Positions 14,734-19,631 of a DNA stretch of 64,000 nt are shown piece by piece (positions within the stretch are counted from its first letter, which is position 1; each line of letters begins with the position of its first letter). The stretch is from Candidatus Aminicenantota bacterium (GTDB lineage: Bacteria; Acidobacteriota; Aminicenantia; Aminicenantales; Saccharicenantaceae). The DNA lies in NCBI GenBank assembly GCA_026393975.1, contig JAPKZD010000022.1, forward strand, positions 1-64,000. Direction: 5' to 3'. The position numbers and the translations under genes were made by a program. Under the pieces are notes generated by a model. The model was not told the DNA's origin, searched no databases, and saw nothing but the letters and a program-made list of their open reading frames with translations.

Positions 14734-16728
14734 ATGGCCACATATCCTGTGAGCCGGGCGTCTGTCATTTTCTTTCCGTCTGCCTACCTACCTACCCGCG
14801 CTTTTCTAATCGGCATCCCGCAGCTGACCAATCAAGCCAAGACTCTACCTGGCAGCCGTAAGGACATCGATATGCGATTCTTAATGCTTGGAACCGGCGA
14901 GTTGGGCCCCAACAAGATCCTGGAGGAATCCGCGTTTGTCGTGACGTCGCCCGTCGAAGGCGAGGAGCTCGTGCCCGGCGCGGTGCATCTCATCACCTGG
15001 ACGGGAGCCGAGGACGTCAAAGAAGTCAAGTACCGGGACCAGACGCTGAAGCCCAAAAACGAAGGAGAGGAGGTATCGCAGTCTATCGTCAGTGATTCGT
15101 TCGAGACGTACGGGGCGGGGGTCTTCCCGAGGACGGGCGGGTGGCTCACGGGCATGGAGAAGATTGCGGGACTTCTCTCAGAGATTAGTCCGAGAGAAAC
15201 GCCGGCTGATGCTCTAAACGTGCGACCTGCCGGCTCTTTAAAAGACAAGGTAAAACGACTCGGGATTGCCAAGACGGGGGCAGAGAGAGAAAGCAGGGGC
15301 AGCGAGGTGCTTCAGTCCGGCGAGCAAGGCGCCCAAGCCTTAAACCTTTCCGATGGGGCTTCGGAGAACGGAGCGGCCCTGATTGATGATGAGGACTCCG
15401 TCTCCGGGCTGAGGTCGTTCAGGCTCGAAACCGTCGGAATAGGGTCGGTTTCCGTTGTCAAGCGGTTCAGCCTGCCTGACCGCGTTCCTTTTGGGGTGAG
15501 CGGGGGGAGTTTCGCGATAGGCGTCAAGCCCAATGATTCCCAAACAAGGACCGGCCTGAGGGAGGGCTCGGATAGGGTATCCCTCCTGGATAGGAGATCC
15601 GGGAAGCTTGGGAAGGAGAATGATCCGGTAACTGGTCCGACATCCGGCGTCAAGAATAAAAGAAACCTCCCTGCTGAAAGTAGATCTGCCGACACAGCTC
15701 TTGATCAGGGCTCAGGAGACAGCCGAAAGACGATGACGACCCTGTCCGCTTCGCCGGTCGGCAACTACTATCTCTATTCCTTTGACGGCAAGCTCCTGCA
15801 GACATACAATGTCTATGGGGTGCTACTCAAGGACTATATCTACATGGGCGACCGGCTCATCGCCGAATACGACCACGTCGGGGCTCGCTTCCTCTACTAC
15901 ACGCCGGACCAGATCAATTCGACCCGCGTCGTGACCGACAGCGCGGGGACGGTAGTCTATTCGGCGGTCCACGACCCCTACGGCGGGATCCAGCAGACCG
16001 GTACCAACAACACCTACGACCCCCAGCTCAAGTTCTCAGGCAAAGAGCGCGACGCCGAATCGGAGCTCGATTACTTCGGAGCGAGGTATTATGACAGGAG
16101 CCAGTATAGGTTTATTTCTGTAGATCCAGTGTTCGAGCTTGAAAAAGCCAGAAACAGTGGTTGGAACATGTATTCATATTGCGGAGATAGGCCCACGAGC
16201 TATATCGACCCCGACGGAATGAGTTGGATATATTATAATAATGTTTGGGGACAAGTATATCTTGTCCTCAACAATTCTTTAGGCACGGTTGTAGGGCCCT
16301 TCCCTGCAGCTAATAACGGCTTTTTTGAAGGCCATGCCAATCCCTTTCCTCAAGGAACTTGGCGCCTCGATTACTATAATCCGAATTGGATAAAGGGAAT
16401 CGACTGTCAGGGTGCATATATATTTTCTGTGACGGGCCACAGGGGGATGGGAATTCATGCTCACGATGAGGTCTTTGGGTATACTTATACCGATGCCTCC
16501 GCAGGCTGCATTACTATAGAGGGCAGCACAATGGCTACGTTACGCTGGTGGGATCGTATTGATCCCATACAGGGCATCCAAGTAGACCGGGCGGATATAG
16601 AACTACCCGCACTACCTGTCATGACTATGGATCTTCTATTGGCTTCGGTTCAAATAACGAGGCTACTTGTGACTGCGCTGCCAGCTGGAAACGATATATC
16701 CTGGGCTATTTCTTATGCCCCAAAATAG
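14734..16728 (+). CDS. RHS-core protein with L,D-transpeptidase-like C-terminal domain (candidate toxin 1)
   Basis: 664 aa. The N-terminal third (about 47-330) is low-complexity with no domain I can name. Residues about 345-495 form the RHS-associated core: YYLYSFDGKLLQTYN, KFSGKERDAESELDYFGARYYD, ending YIDPDG at 490-495, the usual boundary where polymorphic toxin C-termini begin. The C-terminal domain (496-664) has PQGTWRL, GIHAH and SAGCIT. His575 or His577, Ser589 and Cys592 reproduce the H-x13-S-x-G-C pattern of L,D-transpeptidase/YkuD and DUF2778 enzymes that act on peptidoglycan. No clear signal peptide is seen; ATG 14872 is an alternative start. Full-length RHS YD-repeats are missing, so this is a short cassette. 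The C-terminal part is AT-richer than the neighbours, as expected of acquired tips. Confidence 0.7.
   Translation: MATYPVSRASVIFFPSAYLPTRAFLIGIPQLTNQAKTLPGSRKDIDMRFLMLGTGELGPNKILEESAFVVTSPVEGEELVPGAVHLITWTGAEDVKEVKYRDQTLKPKNEGEEVSQSIVSDSFETYGAGVFPRTGGWLTGMEKIAGLLSEISPRETPADALNVRPAGSLKDKVKRLGIAKTGAERESRGSEVLQSGEQGAQALNLSDGASENGAALIDDEDSVSGLRSFRLETVGIGSVSVVKRFSLPDRVPFGVSGGSFAIGVKPNDSQTRTGLREGSDRVSLLDRRSGKLGKENDPVTGPTSGVKNKRNLPAESRSADTALDQGSGDSRKTMTTLSASPVGNYYLYSFDGKLLQTYNVYGVLLKDYIYMGDRLIAEYDHVGARFLYYTPDQINSTRVVTDSAGTVVYSAVHDPYGGIQQTGTNNTYDPQLKFSGKERDAESELDYFGARYYDRSQYRFISVDPVFELEKARNSGWNMYSYCGDRPTSYIDPDGMSWIYYNNVWGQVYLVLNNSLGTVVGPFPAANNGFFEGHANPFPQGTWRLDYYNPNWIKGIDCQGAYIFSVTGHRGMGIHAHDEVFGYTYTDASAGCITIEGSTMATLRWWDRIDPIQGIQVDRADIELPALPVMTMDLLLASVQITRLLVTALPAGNDISWAISYAPK
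15754..15935 (+). repeat. Direct repeat A1 within RHS core
   Basis: Matches 18262-18443 at a fixed offset of 2508 nt with 7 mismatches over 182 nt and no gaps; the first 62 nt are identical. This is DNA-level identity, not only protein similarity, so the two cassettes are recently duplicated or kept alike by recombination. Confidence 0.9.
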
Positions 16729-16738
16729 AGCCAACCCT

Positions 16739-16849
16739 ATGATAAGTATCATTCACGCTAATATCGGATGGGCAGATTTGATCAGGCTTGCCTGCAAGGT
16801 CATTTTCTTATCGATATCATTCATTTTGCTATTGGCTAACAACCCATGA
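16739..16849 (+). CDS. Possible 36-aa membrane peptide between toxin and downstream gene
   Basis: ATG 16739 to TGA 16849. The peptide opens MISIIHANIGWADLIRL, continues into a hydrophobic stretch (about 17-33, IFLSISFILLL) and ends LANNP. Its stop overlaps the next gene's start in an ATGA arrangement (ATG at 16846), which suggests translational coupling. The gap to the RHS stop is 10 nt. No good Shine-Dalgarno is visible, so it may be read through from upstream translation or be chance. Confidence 0.35.
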   Translation: MISIIHANIGWADLIRLACKVIFLSISFILLLANNP

Positions 16850-17823
16850 AAAAGAATCGAATAATCTCACTCTGTGCCCTTCTGTTTTTTTCAAGAATCA
16901 GCATGAGTCTGCTCCATGCTGAAGGATTTAGGTGCCAACCGAGCAAGGATGCATGCCCTGTTATAGCCGACATCCTCCCTAGACAGTGCGAAAACGATGG
17001 AACCATCAGTTTTCTATTCCCTCAAAATACGTTAATTCGCCGAATATTCATAACATTAAAGAATCCAATTGTTTGCCAATCTGTTGATGTTGCTTTCACT
17101 TGGGTGGGGGTGGGGAATTGGGGAAGAGTAGCCGGGATTCTTGTGGTGAAATCCGACGGAGGTCCTAATTGCTTTTTTCTTGGTAACGAATCGGGCATTC
17201 CGCCCGATATCCCCGTTGACAAATTCCAATTGAAAATCCCTCCAGGAGTCGAACTTAAAGAAGTTGTATTTTCCAGACTATTATCAGGCCCAGTTACGAC
17301 GATTTGTCCCATGCCAGATTTGGAAAAAGAGATCAATAGTGCCTATGATATCTGGAAATCTAATCCGATTGAAGAAAAGATCATCGATAATCTCCTCCGA
17401 GTTCTGGAAAAAGCAATCCCACGGTATGATTGCCGGCGAGAAATTGACAGTGAACCTGTCCCTGCTTGGTGGCTGGCGGATTATCGGAGCAATGACAACT
17501 GGATTGCGTTTATGACAACGGTTCTTGACGCGGGCTACGCGCCAGCCTTGAGGCTGTTCATGGAATTTTTCAGGACGTCCGATGGCTATATTGCTGAGGG
17601 GATGACATGGCAAATAGTGAAGATGATCAATAGCGATCCAATATTTATCCTCGAGAATTGGGGCGATCTTAAGAATTATAAGGAGAGCGTTTTCGGCATT
17701 AGGAAGTTTCTGGGACAAGATGACATCGACCGATTGACTACAATGTATCGTGATATATCTCACACCAAGCCGAGTTTTAGTTCGGCTTGTGCGGAGATTA
17801 TCGAAGGCTTGAACAGGAAATAA
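16846..17823 (+). CDS. Exported protein of unknown function, candidate immunity protein 1
   Basis: 325 aa with a signal peptide (about 1-25, ending LLHAEG), so it acts in the periplasm or beyond. The N-terminal half is beta-rich with several Cys (RCQPSKDACPV, QCENDG, NPIVCQS); the C-terminal half (about 155-325) is helical. I recognise no family. It directly follows the RHS cassette 1 tip, is AT-rich like the tip, and is exported, as an immunity protein against a wall-acting toxin should be. That role is inferred from position. A perfect 8-bp hairpin (17766-17789) lies near its 3' end. Confidence 0.55.
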   Translation: MKKNRIISLCALLFFSRISMSLLHAEGFRCQPSKDACPVIADILPRQCENDGTISFLFPQNTLIRRIFITLKNPIVCQSVDVAFTWVGVGNWGRVAGILVVKSDGGPNCFFLGNESGIPPDIPVDKFQLKIPPGVELKEVVFSRLLSGPVTTICPMPDLEKEINSAYDIWKSNPIEEKIIDNLLRVLEKAIPRYDCRREIDSEPVPAWWLADYRSNDNWIAFMTTVLDAGYAPALRLFMEFFRTSDGYIAEGMTWQIVKMINSDPIFILENWGDLKNYKESVFGIRKFLGQDDIDRLTTMYRDISHTKPSFSSACAEIIEGLNRK

Positions 17824-17853: not shown

Positions 17854-17973
17854 GGATTTCGAAGTAAGATTCCCCAAGAGATCGCAGGCGGCAAGGCCGG
17901 TGCCAATGAAGCGGATTCTGTCACGGGACTGAGATCGTTCCTTATCGCATCTGACGGGACCGGTGAGGTTGTC
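17854..17973 (+). pseudogene. 5'-truncated RHS remnant upstream of cassette 2
   Basis: The reading frame of cassette 2 stays open upstream to a stop at 17851-17853 and encodes sequence alignable with cassette 1 (ADSVTGLRSF here, EDSVSGLRSF there), but without an ATG. It is what remains of a longer gene whose 5' part has been lost or displaced, like the orphan tips found behind rhs and CDI genes. Confidence 0.5.
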
Positions 17974-19194
17974 GTGGCCAAACGGCTGAGCCTTCCGTCC
18001 CGCGTGCCTTTCGGCGTGAGCGAGGGGAATTTCATGATAGGCGTTGCCAAGACGGCTTCCCAGGTGAAGACGATTTCGAGAAGCAGGCTGGTGGAGGAGC
18101 TTGGCTTGGGAGATCGACCCGACCGGTCGCGCGAAGAAGAGGATCGGGTCTCGGATCGAAAGTCGGAAACCGCCAATGAGGAACAGGTTCCCGGCATCGC
18201 TAAAGCAGGCCGTACCCCCTCCGGCTCAGGCAACAAGACGATGAAGCTCATGTCGGCCTCCCCGGTCGGCAACTACTATCTCTATTCCTTTGACGGCAAG
18301 CTCCTGCAGACATACAATGTCTACGGGGTTCTCCTCAAGGACTATATCTACATGGGCGATCGCCTCATCGCCGAATACGACCACATCGGGGCTCGCTTCC
18401 TCTACTACACTCCGGACCAGATCAATTCGACCCGCGTCGTGACAGATCAGGGCGGCAACGTGGTCTATTCCGCAACCTATAATCCTTACGGGGGAGTGCA
18501 AATCCCTGATCAGTATAATAACATCGATCCGCTGCCGAAGTTCTCGGGCAAGGAAAGGGACGCGGAATCGGAGCTCGATTACTTCGGGGCGAGGTATTAT
18601 GATAGGAGCCAGTACAGGTTCATCTCAGCTGATCCCAAAATGTATCTAGCTACCGCCCTTATGCCTCCCAAGAAGTGGCATTTCTATTCATATTGTTCGA
18701 ATAATCCCGTCGCATATATAGACCCCAATGGAGCCGCAGAGATCTATTTCCAATTAAATATCTATTATGTTTCTTCAGAGGCAATATGGGAAATATCCGG
18801 CCACCAAACACGGGGGGGAGCACTTAAATGGACCATGACTGTTGAAAGTGATATAGGAAAGGTAAATGGAGAGGGCCGTTTCTGTGCGACCATCTCCTTG
18901 CCCATAAATGTCTATATTCCTGAAGCTGGCGATAGCATCTATGGAACTCCAGATAATCCCAAAGATATTAATGATTCCCTTAATCACGAACTTTCCCATC
19001 TTGAAAATGTCCTTTCGTTTTTTGAAAACACAATTGAGGTCGCGGAGACGTTCGAAGCTAATAAAATAGACAATAAGATCGATGCTAAAATGACAAAGTT
19101 GCTTTTTACGTTTTTTGTAAAGCTTTTAGGTGCAAATTGTGGTTTTCTCAATGTTATTATCGATAATACTCCTGCGCCAAATTGGGACAAATAG
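17974..19194 (+). CDS. Orphan RHS-core cassette with HExxH C-terminal domain (candidate toxin 2)
   Basis: 406 aa if the GTG at 17974 is used (GAGG about 6 nt upstream); homology with cassette 1 begins before it. The RHS core occupies about 90-253, ending YIDPNG at 248-253. The tip (254-406) is unlike the first one. It carries NHELSHLEN, an HExxH zinc-protease motif at 338-342, followed by acidic helices (possible third ligand in the Glu-rich stretch after it). No signal peptide or promoter of its own was found. It may be silent until recombined onto cassette 1 through the shared core. The protease activity is inferred only from the motif. Confidence 0.55.
   Translation: MAKRLSLPSRVPFGVSEGNFMIGVAKTASQVKTISRSRLVEELGLGDRPDRSREEEDRVSDRKSETANEEQVPGIAKAGRTPSGSGNKTMKLMSASPVGNYYLYSFDGKLLQTYNVYGVLLKDYIYMGDRLIAEYDHIGARFLYYTPDQINSTRVVTDQGGNVVYSATYNPYGGVQIPDQYNNIDPLPKFSGKERDAESELDYFGARYYDRSQYRFISADPKMYLATALMPPKKWHFYSYCSNNPVAYIDPNGAAEIYFQLNIYYVSSEAIWEISGHQTRGGALKWTMTVESDIGKVNGEGRFCATISLPINVYIPEAGDSIYGTPDNPKDINDSLNHELSHLENVLSFFENTIEVAETFEANKIDNKIDAKMTKLLFTFFVKLLGANCGFLNVIIDNTPAPNWDK
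18262..18443 (+). repeat. Direct repeat A2 within RHS core
   Basis: Partner of 15754-15935 (offset 2508 nt, 7 differences in 182 nt). A second, weaker block follows in both copies over the FSGKERDAESELDYFGARYYD coding segment (from about 16029 and 18538). Confidence 0.9.
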
Positions 19195-19274: not shown

Positions 19275-19631
19275 ATGTCTATGAGAGCCGTTTCAGATCC
19301 GGATAAGAAACCAAGAGTCTGTTGTCTGGTCTGCGTATTAATGCTTATGTTGGCAGTGGGGACGTTTGTATTCAGGACGATTCAATATGGTAAAAAATTG
19401 AAGTTCTATGACGAGATCCAGATTGGCGCCGATTTGCGTGACGTAATTCCTGTCATTGGTCCGCCATCACAATATCTAACTAGAGAGGAATTTCTAGGGA
19501 GAAAATGTGATATGTTCATATATCATAGTCCCTTGCCCATACAAGATGACTTCTCTCTCCTTTTTGATTTAGTGACTCATAAACTAGTTGATAAACATAG
19601 GGGCGTGATCATTAGTTCTTTAGAACACTAA
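19275..19631 (+). CDS. Membrane-anchored small protein, candidate immunity protein 2
   Basis: 118 aa from the ATG at 19275, which has AAGGAG 7 nt upstream; the frame is open earlier but without a matching site. One membrane segment (about 16-36, CCLVCVLMLMLAVGTFVF) is followed by a soluble domain of about 80 aa. The passage IQIGADLRDVIPVIGPPSQYL resembles the helix-strand pattern (xxxGxxxxxVxxxxGxPS) of SmpA/BamE-like folds. It lies 80 nt behind the HExxH tip, so an envelope-located immunity role is plausible from position. It could also be an unrelated small lipoprotein-like gene. Confidence 0.5.
   Translation: MSMRAVSDPDKKPRVCCLVCVLMLMLAVGTFVFRTIQYGKKLKFYDEIQIGADLRDVIPVIGPPSQYLTREEFLGRKCDMFIYHSPLPIQDDFSLLFDLVTHKLVDKHRGVIISSLEH

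Follow-up and report, generated by a model that had tools for sequence, protein, structure and literature searches.

The window, by which we mean the whole 64,000-nucleotide stretch of the Candidatus Aminicenantota contig analysed here, contains two neighbouring RHS cassettes, each followed by a separate gene (Table 1). In cassette 2, a variable C-terminal tip lies directly 3′ of an RHS-associated core, which is the organization of RHS polymorphic toxins, and the core is recognized by the NCBIfam model TIGR03696 at residues 169-253 (E 1.9e-17; 63.5 bits against a cut-off of 32.5). When we compared this core with that of cassette 1 (15727-16127), we found DNA blocks of 87% and 83% identity. Between the two genes only the linker and the core could be aligned (60% protein identity); similarity is lost within the first few residues of the tips, in agreement with a previous reading of this DNA made from its letters (hereafter the sequence-only reading), which had regarded the two tips as unrelated. 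Tip 1 has a weak likeness to L,D-transpeptidases (YkuD, E 0.033). In another genome (G005, locus L085), a tip of similar kind and, after it, a protein resembling the 325-aa protein of the window were seen by eye, so that the pair at 14734-17823 may likewise be a toxin with its immunity protein.

Table 1. Coordinates of the two RHS cassettes and their downstream genes in the window.
Feature	Position	Strand	Remarks
Cassette 1	14734-16728	+	RHS core and a tip unrelated to tip 2; tip weakly YkuD-like
Candidate immunity protein of cassette 1	16846-17823	+	325 aa, signal-peptide-like; placed after tip 1
Cassette 2, open frame	17857-19194	+	446 codons; 406 aa from the first GTG (17974)
Linker before the RHS core	17857-18240	+	in part homologous to cassette 1, from about 17890
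RHS-associated core	18241-18732	+	TIGR03696; DNA similarity to cassette 1
Variable tip, putative zincin-like toxin domain	18733-19194	+	153 aa (18733-19191) and stop
HELSH motif	18985-18999	+	residues 338-342 from GTG 17974; H85-E86 of the tip
Candidate immunity protein of cassette 2	19275-19631	+	118 aa; N-terminal TM helix and BamE/SmpA-like domain

The sequence-only reading had also reported an HExxH motif in tip 2, followed by an acidic segment, and both are present: HELSH lies at the residues it gave and is directly followed by the Glu-rich stretch LENVLSFFENTIEVAETFEANKID. The tip itself has no match among the Pfam, NCBIfam and PADLOC families. When sets of seven and nine related tips were run with hmmscan against Pfam, up to E 10, the only peptidase-like models returned were DUF922 and Peptidase_M76, both below threshold. 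Tox-MPTase models exist in Pfam, and neither they nor any further peptidase model matched the tips in these searches. Profile searches of solved structures (PDB) with the tips, one of them with nine tips, listed no peptidase or metallopeptidase. The structure prediction that had been proposed as a check was of little help: AlphaFold2, run on the window tip as a single sequence, drew the N-terminal half as strands and put the motif in a helix, but the fold was not modelled (pLDDT 38.5), and because of this score the strand and helix assignment carries little weight.

A search with a single query (P0002) returned three convincing relatives in 99 genomes, and further members were gathered with successive profile searches of the phylum and by reading the RHS arrays that we had fetched. 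After removal of duplicates and fragments, the homologue search among RHS tips that had been suggested thus gave a family of 13 members: the window tip, L087 (on contig 23 of the window's genome), L011, L013, L017, L035, L036, L070a, L070b, L071, L091, L092 and L093. The member L091, which occupies the same place as L015, gave E 0.0039 at its first match and improved to 5.5e-5 against a profile built without it. Left out of the counts were L009 (E 0.0038, with an internal stop in the match and in a region with a sulfatase-like frame), L097 (a C-terminal fragment covering profile positions 108-172) and the duplicate loci of one place. Among contigs of named genomes there was one relative, in Candidatus Aminicenantes bacterium UBA6228; the viral contigs and plasmids that we searched held no relative of the tip.

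H85 and E86 are invariant in all 13 tips. The exact HExxH spacing is kept in ten, two have HExxxH (HEIGCH in L013, HEMTYH in L070b) and one, L017, has HExxQ, so that a second histidine is found in 12 of the 13 if a shift of one residue is allowed. The sequence-only reading would have been contradicted by a motif in a non-conserved loop or missing from homologues. The motif is instead kept in homologues and falls in a helix in the low-confidence model, although it is the HE pair that is universal and not the second histidine. Given the composition of 44 RHS tips from the same genomes, an HExxH is expected by chance 0.005 times per 153 aa. In that set the exact motif occurs in 6 of the 8 family tips as against 2 of the 36 others, and what lifts it above chance is that divergent homologues carry it at one and the same alignment column. 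The third zinc ligand, for which a search had been recommended, did not emerge: no Asp, Glu or His column after the motif is invariant in the alignment of the 13 tips, the best acidic columns being a Glu at tip position 105 (10/13) and one at 115 (8/13, where the window has Lys). The suggestion of a new zincin effector therefore holds as regards the absence of a curated family and the constancy of HE, the name "zinc protease" being putative and taken from the motif.

DUF922 (PF06037), a family predicted to be zincins with an HExxH helix in the available text of its description (PMC3650047), was considered and rejected. Its matches were below the Pfam threshold (0.0016 for L036, 0.0044 for L015/L091), and the C-terminal block YDxETxHG, present in four of four DUF922 proteins, is absent from the window tip. 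An hhalign comparison of the tip profile with DUF922 gave a probability of 3.8%, or 25.8% when L015 was included.

The gene downstream of the window tip has an intact frame, with a Shine-Dalgarno sequence (AAGGAG) 5′ of its ATG, and its product combines a single TM helix with a G-x10-G-x-P segment. A BamE-like TM protein adjoins 10 of the 13 tips, that of the window included, and is absent at L013, L091 and L093; the presence of an adjacent cognate immunity gene is thus a matter of association, at these ten tips. At L036, which was counted as one cassette with L081, a transposase separates the tip from the partner (transposase-like gene on the minus strand of L081, 2704-3834). Genome G003, whose tip L013 has no partner, carries a partner gene without a tip at another place: on the minus strand of L075 (4465-5300) it comes directly after an RHS core fragment, apparently an immunity gene kept after its toxin was lost.

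Comparison with Pfam gave weak BamE matches for 7 of 9 partners (best 0.0051, under the Pfam cut-off where shown). In the reverse direction, an HMM of the partners was run over 1770 six-frame ORFs, a pool with many duplicates from overlapping loci. It recovered 8 of the 9 loci chosen for their Pfam BamE membership (best E 6.1e-6), and its other matches below 0.1 in that pool were only partners and the tip-less gene of G003. The L092 partner, when held out of the HMM, reached E 0.13, and it was counted by its position, TM helix and motif. Below threshold, the PDB matches of the partner comprised BamE, an outer membrane protein (2pxg), beta-lactamase inhibitory proteins (BLIP), a Bacteroides fragilis T6SS immunity protein and unrelated proteins such as myosin light chains. 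The name BtiO also appears in a PDB title among these matches, and our literature search found no paper by that name. In a structure model made from two sequences (score 53.3) the TM helix alone is confident and the rest is poor, and a Foldseek search with this model returned nothing meaningful. Homology of the partner to the BamE/SmpA domain is supported by the profile comparisons, the model giving no exact fold, and the partner is probably a periplasm-facing immunity protein that protects the producer.

The association of tip and partner was examined in a control set of 44 RHS cassettes parsed from the same genomes, some of them near-identical between genomes. A duplicate of the window (L012) and tips shorter than 60 aa had been removed beforehand, and a frame was treated as partial if its core match stopped short of query position 140, a rule that excluded the cassette of G006. 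That cassette was counted by eye from L036/L081, and G020:C8, which is in the same taxonomic family as the window's genome and lay outside the fetched regions, from L010/L017. Of the downstream ORFs possessing an ATG, the first two were tested for each cassette. An HMM built from six tips found two untrained tips among the 44 cassettes (E 1.1e-6 and 2.5e-5), and an HMM of five partners, freed of the TM helix, matched ORFs downstream of both (1.3e-9 and 3.7e-4); the L071/L037 partner had been seen by eye before this test, and that of L070b one step before it. The partner HMM also matched the trained cassettes and one near-identical copy, and at the other 36 cassettes, which carry unrelated tips, it had no match at E<0.1 (best 0.44). 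When the similarity matrices of tips and partners were compared over ten pairs, the Spearman coefficient was 0.43, with 9 of 5000 permutations as high; it was 0.36 (56/5000) without one near-duplicate and 0.34 (152/5000) without two. This modest correlation is compatible with either co-evolution or joint inheritance. The toxin reading is strengthened considerably by this recurring partner gene.

Cassette 2 has neither an N-terminal RHS region nor a signal peptide: its frame opens at 17857 with linker only, and the sole early start, GTG 17974, lies inside the homologous linker and is not convincing. A query from G009 found no full-length RHS N-terminus in the window's own genome, which is 95% complete. 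The N-terminal RHS region and an export signal are present in relatives (e.g. G357 and G015), and other genomes have complete RHS frames, about 2100-2200 aa long, that begin with a signal-peptide-like stretch. G357, which belongs to another family of the same class, has an intact 1580-aa frame with a signal-peptide-like N-terminus, a tip of this family and the partner, which shows that full-length proteins do make use of this tip family. The segment 17857-19631 of the window, for its part, looks like a displaced, or orphan, RHS toxin-immunity cassette. Having no start, no signal peptide and no RHS shell, it probably does not yield a toxin, and the copy is probably silent and kept in store, with an immunity gene that may yet be expressed. 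The accessible part of a study of Salmonella describes orphan Rhs-CT/immunity modules in which a truncated toxin coding sequence and its immunity gene lie downstream of another rhs gene, without initiation and export signals, and which recombination can activate (PMC3967940). Their layout is that of the window cassette; in Salmonella the case was made by experiment, whereas ours comes from sequence comparison. The sequence-only reading had missed both the N-terminal truncation, with its probably silent copy, and the recurrent partner gene, which lies outside the coordinates it covered.

Taken together, we consider it probable that these tips form a zincin-like RHS toxin family with BamE-like immunity, of which the window holds an orphan cassette, and that the site of action of the tip is the periplasm or inner membrane of the target cell. 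Recombination at the common core would join the tip to a complete RHS protein exported by the Sec route, with which it would reach a neighbouring cell and work there as a zinc peptidase, either within the periplasm or on the inner membrane. In the producer, the BamE-like domain would sit on the periplasmic side of the inner membrane and neutralize the tip by binding to it. The binding of zinc, the peptidase activity, the periplasmic site of action and the neutralization by the partner are all predicted. Delivery by a T6SS was not adopted, as five full-length relatives have N-terminal starts that by eye resemble signal peptides.

The nearest working model may be Tpe1-Tpi1, or the VgrG2b C-terminal domain with PA0261. 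In the available text these are described as HExxH metallopeptidase toxins that act in the periplasm and are encoded beside a small gene, with an envelope-targeted immunity protein that in A. baylyi is anchored in the inner membrane by an N-terminal TM helix (PMC6899460). The likeness to the window pair is one of description and extends to the motif, the small adjacent gene and the TM-anchored immunity. According to the same text, however, Tpe1 and VgrG2b are linked to the T6SS and their third ligand is a Glu known from a crystal structure, whereas the window tip is linked to RHS. Zincin-like tips behind RHS repeats, as in the window, have been described as Tox-MPTase1-5 and HopH1-like (Zhang 2012, PMC3482391), but no Pfam model of theirs matched our tips; in the table rows consulted there, no immunity partner is given for Tox-MPTase1-3. 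Lipocone and Colicin M-like toxins, which act on lipid head groups, are accompanied in the portion available to us of a recent survey by adjacent, rapidly evolving, membrane-anchored BamE-like immunity proteins (PMC12419801). The TM anchor and BamE-like domain are those of the window partner, the putative toxin of the window being an HExxH tip.

This last report makes an immunity role for the partner credible, and the same fact feeds an alternative in which the tip is a metal-dependent enzyme acting at the membrane on lipid head groups or lipid-linked cell-wall precursors, and not on proteins. Such an enzyme would suit both the BamE-like immunity proteins reported with Min-Wnt and CapCone, of the Lipocone group, and with Colicin M-like toxins, and the long hydrophobic stretches that follow the motif in the tips. 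Membership in the Lipocone superfamily was nevertheless rejected: as the accessible text describes it, that fold needs a His, a Glu and an Asp on three separate helices (H2, H3 and H4), whereas in the alignment of our tips the His and Glu are adjacent, with the second His four to five residues on. HExxH being moreover the classic zinc-peptidase motif, we regard a lipid target as unlikely. It appears less likely again that a zincin-like toxin attacks the targets of Lipocone or Colicin M-like toxins, or the outer membrane assembly machinery, with the BamE-like immunity protein as a shared scaffold or a decoy of the target.

Between these two in likelihood, and also unlikely, stands the view that the tip is a decayed, non-functional remnant, its HExxH a relic and the cassette debris of RHS rearrangement. 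The window copy does lack a start and an N-terminus, the motif is altered in 3 of the 13 tips, and relatives include fragments with internal stops, a transposase between tip and partner and a tip-less partner gene. Against decay, however, the 446 codons are open, the partner frame and its Shine-Dalgarno sequence are intact, HE is kept in every tip, and dN/dS is about 0.48 for the tip and 0.33 for the partner, values that come from one close pair with only 24 and 27 differences. Very improbable, in our view, is an incidental pairing with an unrelated BamE-like housekeeping protein. BamE-like domains are indeed present in other settings, in 8 of 60 genomes of the phylum, but among the 44 cassettes they follow this tip family only, and the similarity matrices agree with a pairing.

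RHS zincin tips, BamE-like immunity and orphan cassettes are each already known, and we found no account of this tip family paired with a BamE-like protein in the available portions of the open-licence PMC literature. If the toxin reading is true, it adds an uncatalogued zincin-like family to the RHS systems of the barely cultured Aminicenantes. BamE-like immunity would then reach beyond lipid-targeting toxins to HExxH tips, a hint that its fold may guard against envelope-acting toxins in general. The tip and partner are short and could be tested as a pair in E. coli.

We also observed that truncated RHS cassettes of core, tip and immunity gene stand in long arrays at L070, L071, L068, L069, L073 and L074, with a wide variety of tips and, in some cassettes, stops in the core. 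At L076 (1492-8055), the C-terminal tip of a 2187-aa RHS protein contains HEQHH; it scores E 9.5e-4 with the tip HMM and is possibly a distant relative of the zincin-like family. The protein is followed by a multi-TM protein and not by a BamE-like one. A separate RHS tip family, found in several cassettes (L069, L072, L076 and L083) and accounting for 5 of the 36 non-family tips, has HELYGH, an HExxxH spacing one residue longer than HExxH, and after each of its tips comes a predicted exported protein that is not of the BamE-like kind.
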